Of a stretch of DNA of 64,000 nucleotides, positions 15,249-56,988 are shown piece by piece. Each line of letters begins with the position of its first letter. The stretch's first letter is position 1. A program made the position numbers and the translations under genes. The stretch lies in assembly GCA_020544565.1 (NCBI GenBank), contig CP078014.1:998574-1062573 (forward strand), in the 5' to 3' direction. Below the pieces are notes generated by a model. It made no database searches. It was not told the DNA's origin and saw nothing but the letters and a program-made list of their open reading frames with translations. This stretch comes from Bradyrhizobiaceae bacterium (lineage in GTDB: Bacteria > Pseudomonadota > Alphaproteobacteria > Rhizobiales > Xanthobacteraceae).

Positions 15249-16316
15249 TCAGGTGAGTTGCGTACGGTTCACCGGCGTGCATTCAGGATCGGACTCGCAG
15301 ATCACGCGATTGCGGCCGTTGCGCTTCGCCGCGTAGAGGCAGGCATCTGCGCGCTCGATCAGGCAGTCCGCGTTCTCGCTGGGCTGTAACATCGAGACGC
15401 CGACGGACACGGTGATACGGCCGAGAATCTCGCCGGTGGATCTTTTCTTCAACTGCTTCGACATCACGGCGCGACGGATATTGTCCGCCACCGTGAGCGC
15501 TTGGCGTAGCGCGGTCTTCGGCAGCACCACGGCGAATTCCTCGCCGCCGTAGCGCGCAGCGACGTCCTGCCCCTTGATCGACTGCTTAAGCGACATCGCG
15601 ACGAGACGCAGCACGTGGTCGCCGGTGAGATGACCGTAATTGTCGTTGAACGACTTGAAATGGTCGATATCGAGCATCAGCAGGGACAACGGCTCGCCGC
15701 TTCCGGCTGCGTCCTCCACGGCGCCTTCGATCGCCCGATTGAAGTATTTGCGATTTCCCAGCGTGGTGAGGGGATCGGTCAGGCTTTCTGCGCGGATCGC
15801 TTCCAGGCTTTGCTGGAGGCTACCGATTTCCTGCTTGGAGGCAATGAGCCGGGCTTCGAGGGCTTTGTTGGTTTCCTGCATTTCCCGGGTTGATGAAATG
15901 AGGCCGGCCACCACGGCCATGATCTTCTCCCGGTCGCTCGCGCCGGACAGCTGCTGCGATGCGCCGGCGAGATTCTGGCCGAATGTCGCCGTCATGCCGA
16001 GCGCGTCGGTGATGAGGGCCATCACGTCGTCGATCTCGTTGATGACCTGGCCGCCGACTTTGTCGATGCGCGCGGAGGTCCGGGCCTGCGAGAGATATGT
16101 ATCGTAGATCTGTTCGAGGTCGGATTCGCTCAGTCGGCCAGTGCGGGCGAGCGTTTCATTGATGATCTTGTTGAGAGCGGGGTTGCAGCCGGTGGCGTAG
16201 ATGTACCAGATTTCATAGTTTCGGGGCACTGCGGGCTGTCGCAAGGACCTGATCTGTCCCAATGCGACGTCGGCGAACGCCATGGTGCGTTCGTGATCTT
16301 CCACCAGCCCAATCAC
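15249..16316 (-). CDS. GGDEF diguanylate cyclase
   Basis: The cytoplasmic protein (355 residues from the GTG start) should make cyclic di-GMP from two GTP. A helical N-terminal domain (VPRNYEIWYIYATG, about 25-130) and a coiled-coil stretch (about 140-185) precede the GGDEF domain. The active site is intact: RYGGEEF. The inhibitory site upstream reads KGQD rather than RxxD, so product feedback may be weakened. No membrane helices are seen. The start is uncertain: a TTG at 16355 adds 13 residues; the GTG at 16316 has GGGAAC about 10 nt upstream, inside a nested inverted repeat. Confidence 0.88.
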   Translation of the reverse strand: MIGLVEDHERTMAFADVALGQIRSLRQPAVPRNYEIWYIYATGCNPALNKIINETLARTGRLSESDLEQIYDTYLSQARTSARIDKVGGQVINEIDDVMALITDALGMTATFGQNLAGASQQLSGASDREKIMAVVAGLISSTREMQETNKALEARLIASKQEIGSLQQSLEAIRAESLTDPLTTLGNRKYFNRAIEGAVEDAAGSGEPLSLLMLDIDHFKSFNDNYGHLTGDHVLRLVAMSLKQSIKGQDVAARYGGEEFAVVLPKTALRQALTVADNIRRAVMSKQLKKRSTGEILGRITVSVGVSMLQPSENADCLIERADACLYAAKRNGRNRVICESDPECTPVNRTQLT

Positions 16317-16320
16317 GTTC

Positions 16321-16379
16321 CGTGTTCCCAGATCAGGCTTCTGCCTGACTTCCAATTAAATAAAAATATTGGGAACACG
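16321..16379 (-). promoter_or_regulatory. Nested inverted repeat at the diguanylate cyclase start
   Basis: Outer arms CGTGTTCCCA (16321-16330) and TGGGAACACG (16370-16379) are perfect 10-bp complements separated by 39 bp. Inside them is a second hairpin, TCAGGC-TTCT-GCCTGA (16333-16348). Between inner hairpin and right arm the DNA is AT-rich (about 16351-16369). If translation begins at the GTG at 16316, the proximal arm covers the ribosome site. It could be a dimeric operator pair or an RNA switch-like fold; neither is shown. Confidence 0.5.
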
Positions 16380-16470
16380 TTAAGGGACGAGAGTGAATCA
16401 GCCGTAAACGACCAGACGTGGACGGGTCACGATCACTGACGGGATCGCGAAAGGGTCAAAGCGCCGCGCG

Positions 16471-17877
16471 TTAGCCGCGCGCGCGGATCGGCCTGAGCAG
16501 GAACGCCGGAAGGTGCGAATGGTCGGCGGGCTCGGCGTGGTGGTCGCGGGGAGCCACCGGAATCGGCGCACGGCCGAACGAGGGTGTCTGCGGCGGTGCC
16601 GCGATCTCGGTTGTGTCCGGCTTGCGCGACTTGCTCCGGGAGCCGCGCGGCGACCGTTGGCTGCCTTCGCGGCGCGGCTTGCGGCCGTCGGAGGCGCGCC
16701 CGGCACGGGGCGCGGGGGCATCGTCGGCCGAGGCGGTGTCCGTGTTGACGACGGGTGCGCCTTCGAGCGGAGCGATCGGCTGGCCGATCAGCTTCTCGAT
16801 GGCGAGCAGCGACTTCTGGTCGGCGGGGCTGACGATGGATACGGCGCTGCCGAGACGTCCGGCGCGGCCGGTGCGGCCGATGCGGTGGACGTAATCGTCG
16901 GGATGGTGGGGCACGTCGAAATTGAAGACGTGGCTGACTTCGGGAATATCGAGGCCGCGTGCGGCGACGTCGGAGGCGACGAGCAGGGGCAGCTCGCCCT
17001 TGCGGAACTGGTCGAGCGCGGCCATGCGGGCGCTCTGGTCCATATCGCCATGCAGGGCGCAGACGCTGAAGCCGTGCTTCTGTAACGATTTGTAAAGGAT
17101 CGCGACGTCCCGCTTGCGATTGCAGAAGATGATCGCGTTTTTGAGATCCTTGGCGTTGCGCAGCAACTGCCGCAGCATGTCGCGCTTTTCATGCGCCTCG
17201 CGGCCGACGCTGACCTGCGACTGGGTGACGGTGACCGCCGCGGTGGCGGGCTTGGACACCTCGACCTTCACCGGGTTGTGCAGGAAGGTTTCGGTGATGC
17301 GCCGGATTTCCGGCGGCATGGTCGCGGTGAAGAACAGGGTCTGCCGCGTGAAAGGCACCAGCTTGCAGATACGCTCGATGTCGGGGATGAAGCCCATGTC
17401 CAGCATGCGGTCGGCTTCGTCGATCACCAGCAGTTCGACGCCGGTGAGCAGCAGCTTGCCGCGCTCGGTATGGTCGAGCAGGCGGCCCGGGGTCGCGATC
17501 AGCACGTCGACGCCGCGCGACAGCTTCATGTCCTGATCGCCGAACGACACGCCGCCGATCAGCAGCGCCACGTTGAGCTTCTGGCCGGCGCCGTATTTGT
17601 CGAAATTCTCTTTGACCTGTGCCGCCAGTTCGCGGGTCGGCTCCAGGATCAGCGTGCGCGGCATCAGGGCGCGGGCCCGGCCTTTTTCCAGCAGCGTCAG
17701 CATCGGAAGCACGAAGGCCGCCGTCTTGCCGGTGCCGGTCTGGGCGATGCCGAGAACGTCGCGGCGGGCGAGAACGTGGGGGATCGCCTGTTCCTGGATG
17801 GGGGTCGGGGTGGTGTAGCCGGTTGCCGCCACGGCGGCGAGAACCTTGTCGGACAGGCCAAGATTGGAAAAGGACAT
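16471..17877 (-). CDS. DEAD-box RNA helicase (RhlE type)
   Basis: This 468-residue ATP-dependent RNA helicase carries the full motif set: Q-motif (TTPTPIQEQAIP), motif I AQTGTGKT, motif II DEAD (VIDEADRMLDMGF), motif III TAT, and motif VI HRIGRTGR. After about residue 380 comes a basic, disordered-looking tail rich in Arg, Ser and Pro, as in RhlE proteins acting in RNA turnover or ribosome assembly. The start MSFSNLGL was chosen because AGAGG precedes it; a GTG 57 nt further out is possible. The upstream leader is long and AT-richer, as often seen for cold-regulated helicase genes. Confidence 0.93.
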   Translation of the reverse strand: MSFSNLGLSDKVLAAVAATGYTTPTPIQEQAIPHVLARRDVLGIAQTGTGKTAAFVLPMLTLLEKGRARALMPRTLILEPTRELAAQVKENFDKYGAGQKLNVALLIGGVSFGDQDMKLSRGVDVLIATPGRLLDHTERGKLLLTGVELLVIDEADRMLDMGFIPDIERICKLVPFTRQTLFFTATMPPEIRRITETFLHNPVKVEVSKPATAAVTVTQSQVSVGREAHEKRDMLRQLLRNAKDLKNAIIFCNRKRDVAILYKSLQKHGFSVCALHGDMDQSARMAALDQFRKGELPLLVASDVAARGLDIPEVSHVFNFDVPHHPDDYVHRIGRTGRAGRLGSAVSIVSPADQKSLLAIEKLIGQPIAPLEGAPVVNTDTASADDAPAPRAGRASDGRKPRREGSQRSPRGSRSKSRKPDTTEIAAPPQTPSFGRAPIPVAPRDHHAEPADHSHLPAFLLRPIRARG

Positions 17878-18232
17878 TGAGCCTCTAGTCGCGAAATCGC
17901 CGTTCGGACTCTTGAGAGTAACTGTCGCGTTCACCCCGGAACGGCACGCTTTATGGGCACGGGGAGGGAAACATCGCCGACAGGCGGCAGGTCAAAAGAA
18001 CGCTTTACGTTTCTGACCGCGTTGCAGCGGAACATAGGCCCGAAACCGCCAGAGTCAATGAATTTGAGGCTTGAAATGGTGAAAAAAGCTTAATCCGACA
18101 ACGTCTTGGAGCGCTGTGGGGGCCCAAACGCCCCCTCCCGGCCACGCCGCCGGCGGGCGGTTGACCCCTGTCGAGAAAAGCGCTTTTTCATCAAAATCAA
18201 TTCAAGTGGATATCACCCTTGGACTTTTGGCC

Positions 18233-32480: not shown

Positions 32481-32566
32481 TCGTCATTGCGAGCGAAGCG
32501 AAGCAATCCATTCCTGACTTGCACAAAGATGGATTGCTTCGTCGCAAGTGCTCCTCGCAATGACGA
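32481..32566. repeat. Palindromic intergenic repeat, family 2, copy A
   Basis: The left arm TCGTCATTGCGAGCG, continuing to AAGCAATCCA, and the right arm TGGATTGCTTCG, continuing to CTCCTCGCAATGACGA, form a long imperfect inverted repeat around a short centre. The same ends recur at 34462-34579 and 56905-56988. It lies between the dehalogenase gene and recJ. Confidence 0.8.
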
Positions 32567-34461: not shown

Positions 34462-34579
34462 CGTCATTGCGAGGAGCGCTTGCGACGAAGCAATCCAGTT
34501 CTTCCCTTGCAGTTCTGTATTGCTTCGCGGAGCCTGTCATCGGGCGGCGCTTGCGCCGACCCGTTGGCTCGCAATGACG
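34462..34579. repeat. Palindromic intergenic repeat, family 2, copy B
   Basis: The ends CGTCATTGCGAGGAGCG and GGCTCGCAATGACG match copy A, with AAGCAATCCAG and TATTGCTTCGCGGAG inside. The centre is longer than in copy A and carries an extra small hairpin (CGGCGCTTGCGCCG). It occupies nearly the whole gap between convergent recJ and the transglycosylase gene, 2 bp from one stop and 3 bp from the other. Confidence 0.8.
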
Positions 34580-56904: not shown

Positions 56905-56988
56905 CGTCATTGCGAGCGAAGCGAAGCAATCCACCCTTGATACAACATAAGCTGGATTGCTTCGGAGCTCACGCTCCTCGCAATGACG
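56905..56988. repeat. Palindromic intergenic repeat, family 2, copy D
   Basis: CGTCATTGCGAGCGAAGCG, continuing to AAGCAATCCA, is answered by TGGATTGCTTCGGAGCT and CGCTCCTCGCAATGACG. It is a near match to copy A and lies between the convergent HMG-CoA lyase and dctM genes, so it may act as a two-way terminator. Confidence 0.8.

Follow-up and report, generated by a model that had tools for sequence, protein, structure and literature searches.

The diguanylate cyclase gene considered here lies on the minus strand of the window (the whole stretch of DNA that was analysed, 64,000 nucleotides), and upstream of it a perfect inverted repeat encloses a second one, which raises the question of whether the outer repeat controls expression of the gene, as folded RNA or as DNA. 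The comparison of orthologues makes it on balance probable that the segment is the promoter of the diguanylate cyclase gene followed by a short leader, and that the native mRNA escapes control by the outer repeat.

The gene and its nested repeats

The locations of the features discussed in this and the following sections are listed in Table 1. The product was identified as a diguanylate cyclase by its GGDEF domain (Pfam E 4.7e-46), as the sequence-only reading had proposed, and the GTG start codon that it had chosen is present at 16316-16314 of the minus strand; since an in-frame stop codon lies directly 5′ of the GTG in 13 of 33 orthologue rows, the start is right at least in those. The enzyme is encoded in 203 of 296 genomes of the family (E up to 1e-120), to which Tardiphaga and Bradyrhizobium belong. 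The usual inhibition site of diguanylate cyclases is an RxxD motif located five residues before GGEEF. At that position the product of 15249-16316 has KGQD, and product inhibition may have been lost with this replacement.

Table 1. Coordinates of the features of the diguanylate cyclase locus in the window.
Feature	Coordinates	Strand	Basis	Remarks
Diguanylate cyclase gene, GGDEF domain, GGEEF motif	15249..16316	-	Pfam and orthologue starts	GTG at 16316-16314
Proximal arm TGGGAACACG	16321..16330	-	sequence and alignment	holds Shine-Dalgarno-like TGGGAA
Inner hairpin SL2, TCAGGC-AGAA-GCCTGA	16333..16348	-	alignment and covariation	just upstream of ribosome site
AT-rich inverted repeat CCAAT...ATTGG, weak	16352..16372	-	sequence only	left arm straddles predicted start
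Predicted +1	16370	-	inferred from pyrimidine-purine signature	last base of distal arm
Distal arm CGTGTTCCCA	16370..16379	-	sequence and alignment	equals promoter -9 to +1
Putative -10 element TAACGT (TAnnnT)	16377..16382	-	orthologue comparison	11 bp after box
CtrA-type activator box TTTACGGCTGATTCA (TTTA-N7-TTCA)	16394..16408	-	orthologue comparison	5′ base at -38 of predicted start
DEAD-box RNA helicase gene, RhlE-like	16471..17934	-		co-directional, upstream; possible source of read-through RNA

The outer repeat has perfect 10-bp arms (16321-16330 and 16370-16379) separated by a 39-bp spacer, and the second repeat, TCAGGC-TTCT-GCCTGA, was found inside it at 16333-16348. The ribosome site was likewise located within the proximal arm, as had been claimed; the place of its TGGGAA is mostly occupied by GGGGA or GAAGG in relatives. 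The window contains seven perfect inverted repeats of at least 10 bp with spacers of 3-50, compared to a mean of 8.07 (range 4-13) in 30 dinucleotide shuffles, and because this count is near the expectation, the outer repeat alone is no evidence of function. In the 157-bp stretch 16314-16470 alone, such a repeat arose in 15 of 3000 shuffles. By itself, therefore, the outer repeat is not above chance for a window, yet it is locally unusual (about 0.5%, reckoned post hoc). The AT-rich repeat CCAAT...ATTGG has no statistical support of its own, and predicted folds pair other bases there.

A search of 801 bases on both strands with the Rfam covariance models (E up to 1) gave no match at the gathering score, the sole match being to a microRNA family with 20.2 bits where the gathering score is 68. 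The leader is not named among the literature matches, a weak negative considering that the search on diguanylate cyclase promoters was narrow, and the words diguanylate and GGDEF are absent from the main text, in the portion available, of a map of Bradyrhizobium transcription starts (PMC4842269).

A predicted promoter over the distal arm

The orthologue sample consisted of 116 upstream regions, one per genome (row L029 was dropped, being from the same genome as L215), of which 29 are from members of the genus, the window's own included, and 87 from others, nearly all of the same family. Gene starts were parsed for 99 of them and the remaining 17 were searched by pattern only. For the tests of RNA accessibility, pairing, leader folding and start signature, 96 sequences were kept (29 from the genus and 67 others) and unparsed, truncated or otherwise unreadable loci were left out. 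A further sample comprised 14 relatives, of which 11 belong to other families of the order and three to the same family.

The arrangement TTTAC-N6-TTCA-N11-TAnnnT was found upstream of 92 of the 116 family orthologues, or 98 if close variants are included: it is exact in 85 of the 99 parsed upstream regions (88 with close variants of the same spacing) and in seven of the 17 unparsed loci (ten with close variants, leaving seven without). The 11 parsed regions with no match comprise eight from one genus, two that are truncated and one in which the spacing is 12. In the eight species of that one genus (L159, L167, L169-L174), TTTAC-N6-TAAAC replaces TTTAC-N6-TTCA in the same promoter. The TTTAC, TTCA and TA...T positions are invariant in the 29-species alignment. 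A relaxed form of the promoter was found in the sense orientation in seven of the 14 further relatives (five of the 11 from other families) and in the antisense orientation in none, the other seven being without it. The window's genome contains one occurrence of the arrangement even if a spacing of 9-13 is allowed, and none of its other TTWAC-N6-TTMAC sites, the gene's own excepted, has TAnnnT at N11. A sigma-70 consensus scan of 271 bases (16250-16520) found no promoter, and TAACGT is a poor -10 element; the distal arm begins with its CGT. Comparison of orthologues supports this predicted promoter and its spacing.

The working of the promoter and leader may be envisaged as follows. A response regulator of the OmpR/PhoB family, most likely CtrA, would bind the TTTA-N7-TTCA direct repeat in place of a -35 element and recruit RNA polymerase to TAACGT. 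The mRNA would begin near 16370, its 5′ end would be AU-rich, and its leader would fold into the small hairpin SL2, with the ribosome site open 5-14 nt before the GTG. The distal arm would then be promoter DNA and not leader RNA, and the outer repeat would have no control over the native mRNA.

The full binding site of CtrA is TTAA-N7-TTAA, and it is found at -39 of the ctrA P2 start of Caulobacter, according to the accessible part of PMC4287350. Exact TTAA-N7-TTAA occurs in five of the 14 further relatives (L279, L280, L282, L285, L288), three of which have TAnnnT at N11 or N12; the sequence is TTAAC-N6-TTAA in L279, L280 and L285, and an intermediate, TTAAC-N6-TTCA, in L281, whereas L282 and L288 have TTAA-N7-TTAA but no -10 element at that distance. 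Because the CtrA site stands at the same place in some relatives from other families, the promoter is read as a CtrA-type class II promoter. In common with such promoters it has an 11-bp direct repeat for a -35 element, a 5′ base at -38 (by the predicted start; the layout calls for a box near -39) and a -10 element eleven bases downstream. It is unlike them in that the window and the 92 family upstream regions have TTTA-N7-TTCA, and the role of CtrA is predicted here. Two of the eight bases of the window's box differ from the exact CtrA site, and for this reason the box is labelled CtrA-type and not counted as a proven member. Among regulators, CtrA is the likely activator. If so, a diguanylate cyclase widespread in the family would be under a cell-cycle regulator, a direct wire from CtrA to c-di-GMP.

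FeuP is also a possible activator. The candidate FeuP motif of Sinorhizobium meliloti is TTCA-N7-TTCA in the available portion of PMC3616915, equal to the window's box in length and spacing and different from it by one base, compared to two for the exact CtrA site. None of the 11 TTCA-N7-TTCAC sites in this genome has TAnnnT 8-14 bases downstream, and the tendency among relatives from other families is towards TTAA and away from TTCA. A third candidate, CenR, was rejected: as described in the accessible part of PMC9275681 it needs a TGA-N8-TGA direct repeat, which TTTA-N7-TTCA is not, and it was also ruled out on the inverted repeat reported in the portion available for S. meliloti.

The sixth base after the -10 element is a pyrimidine in 26 of the 29 genus members and 53 of the 67 others, and a purine occupies the seventh position in 26 and 54 of them, respectively. 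A pyrimidine followed by a purine at such a distance from the -10 element is the usual signature of a transcription start. On the strength of this conserved signature, which is supported by the comparison, the start was put at 16370, where it would remove nine of the ten distal-arm bases from the transcript, so that the native mRNA could not form the outer hairpin. The predicted start thus lies inside the repeat, the very situation that the sequence-only reading had named as incompatible with its proposal that the RNA folds there. The native RNA would consist of AAUAUUUUUAUUUAAUUGGAAG-SL2-UCUGGGAACACGGAAC-GUG, with a predicted leader of 54 nt; predicted folds show it without the outer helix, which a longer RNA forms. 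The first transcribed bases (16352-16369 and the corresponding leaders of orthologues) comprise a conserved AT-rich block resembling ATATTTTTAnnnATT in three genera.

The inner hairpin of the leader

When RNAalifold was applied to the 29-sequence alignment, it returned just a three-pair stem around the start codon and neither SL2 nor the outer helix. Gaps probably split the arms of SL2 in that alignment; both helices were also tested directly. Across all 29 species, 85.1% of the SL2 cells are paired, compared to 78.4% after shuffling (0 of 500 shuffles as good), and the covariation score is 0.224, compared to 0.131 (0/500); two of the five alignment measures give a less clear result (213/500 and 10/500). 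Under a tree-based null for 28 of the 29 species, in which the substitutions of each column were re-placed on the gene tree, none of 400 sets reached the observed pairing, L016 having been removed from the SL2 window tests because its loop motif is absent. As judged from these alignments, SL2 is conserved in the genus, kept by compensating changes, and is better conserved than the outer pairing. Leaders that fold better than their shuffles at the 5% level make up 18 of 29 in the genus, 6 of 10 in the genus that contains Tardiphaga, and 1 of 8, 4 of 17, 3 of 19 and 4 of 13 in other groups. SL2 may keep the ribosome site free or serve as a standby structure.

The outer pairing and its possible roles

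A comparison of relatives for covariation had been suggested as the check on the nested repeats, and while the inner hairpin does covary, the outer pairing gave a weak and mixed result and is lost in several species. The nearest species (L002) keeps all ten outer pairs, two of them as G-U and one through a double change. In the 29 species, pairing between the -10/+1 window and the ribosome site was equalled by 2 of 2000 permuted partners and, in tree-based nulls, by 2 of 300 and 4 of 400 sets; when L001 and L002, which the finding itself had selected, were removed, it was equalled by 11 of 400, and four control windows in the same run gave 23 to 119 of 400. On the alignment, 66.4% of cells are paired, compared to 63.9% after shuffling (3/500) and 36.0-54.5% in slid versions, and the covariation score is 0.202, compared to 0.171 (3/500), but a version slid by -2 columns scores nearly as high (0.198) and two measures fail to beat the shuffles (75/500 and 164/500). 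In 17 of the 29 species the -9..+3 stretch pairs best with the ribosome-site region, but only L001, L002, L007 and L011 pair with it at a level attained by at most 5% of shuffles. Read by eye, the alignment shows no such pairing in L003, L004, L006 and L016 and a broken one in L013, L014, L015 and L026, next to relatives that do pair; conservation of the arms does not extend across the genus. By this comparison the outer pairing appears to be lineage-specific at most, and the outer repeat here is probably a chance match of the -10/+1 stretch to the ribosome site, although an outer pairing slightly above shuffles means that pure coincidence is not proven.

The foremost alternative is that RNA reading through from the helicase gene contains both arms and folds back to hide the ribosome site, while RNA from the gene's own regulated promoter, which would begin within the repeat, is translated, with the consequence that the enzyme is made only when that promoter fires. 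A scan of the 271 bases 16250-16520 found no terminator-like site, and in the window the ribosome site is predicted to be 2% unpaired in the long RNA and 62% unpaired in the native RNA, with a mean of 32% when the upstream sequence is shuffled and 0 of 60 shuffles as low as the long RNA. This closure is not general: the long RNA falls within the lowest 5% of upstream shuffles in nine of the 29 species (median fraction 0.38) and in six of the 67 others (0.43), and the interspecies pairing data given above, though they contain some values beyond chance, weigh against it through the eight genus members that lack or break the pairing. Inhibition of read-through transcripts by folding back is known from the transposase genes of IS10 and IS50 and from gene e of phage T4. 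In those systems, as by prediction here, one arm lies over the transcription start and the other over the ribosome site, such that only the read-through RNA can close; the present case differs in that the gene is chromosomal, the pairing is not conserved across the genus and the gate is a prediction. Fold-back silencing of this kind is a tentative possibility. Its full version, in which helicase read-through folds the -10/+1 stretch onto the ribosome site and stays silent while CtrA-driven RNA starts past the arm and is translated, so that the enzyme appears only at a time permitted by CtrA, is unlikely. Were the gate real in addition to the role of CtrA, translation would depend on which promoter had made the RNA, with promoter DNA serving as the lock, in a bacterial gene and not in the mobile elements or phages from which such locks are otherwise known.

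It is very unlikely that a hairpin or symmetric operator in or over the start region is the real element, with a partner that shifts between lineages. In five members of the genus that contains Tardiphaga (L196, L197, L200, L202, L203), the early leader is the partner of the -9..+1 stretch in a near-perfect helix of about 10-11 bp that has changes in both arms, the long pairings being between -9..+3 and about +14..+28; the start region is thus part of an inverted repeat there too, with another partner. Nine sequences gave 73.2% pairing, compared to 64.7% after shuffling (1/500), but covariation is higher after a slide of +3 (0.281 compared to 0.236) and two measures are not above the shuffles. 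In 14 of 96 sequences the stretch pairs with the leader or the ribosome site at a level attained by at most 5% of shuffles; five of these are among the 29 of the window's genus and nine among the 67 others, and the excess is modest. Moreover, the native RNA would be without much of the left arm.

The original proposal, that the outer hairpin forms in the native mRNA and blocks its translation, perhaps until released by a ligand, is highly improbable. A 131-nt RNA with both arms does fold well (z -3.3), and the part of the proposal that stands is that a long RNA would close the ribosome site; the part that by prediction fails is the outer hairpin of the native RNA, since a transcript from the predicted start would have lost most of the distal arm. 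The likeness to c-di-GMP riboswitches is that this is the leader of a c-di-GMP gene, and the differences are that the 801 bases gave no Rfam match at the gathering score and that the predicted leader is so short. That a DNA-looping repressor uses the arms as its half-sites is scarcely credible despite the perfect 10-bp symmetry, as each arm overlaps another signal (the -10 element and start, or the ribosome site) and the arm sequences vary among species.

Elsewhere in the window, 32483-32548 and 56906-56988 both begin with GTCATTGCGAGCGAAGCGAAGCAATCCA and contain an inverted partner of it, and GAAGCAATCCA occurs five times compared to 0.03 expected, including at 34487-34497. From their sequences, 32483-32548 and 56906-56988 are apparently copies of a palindromic repeat.
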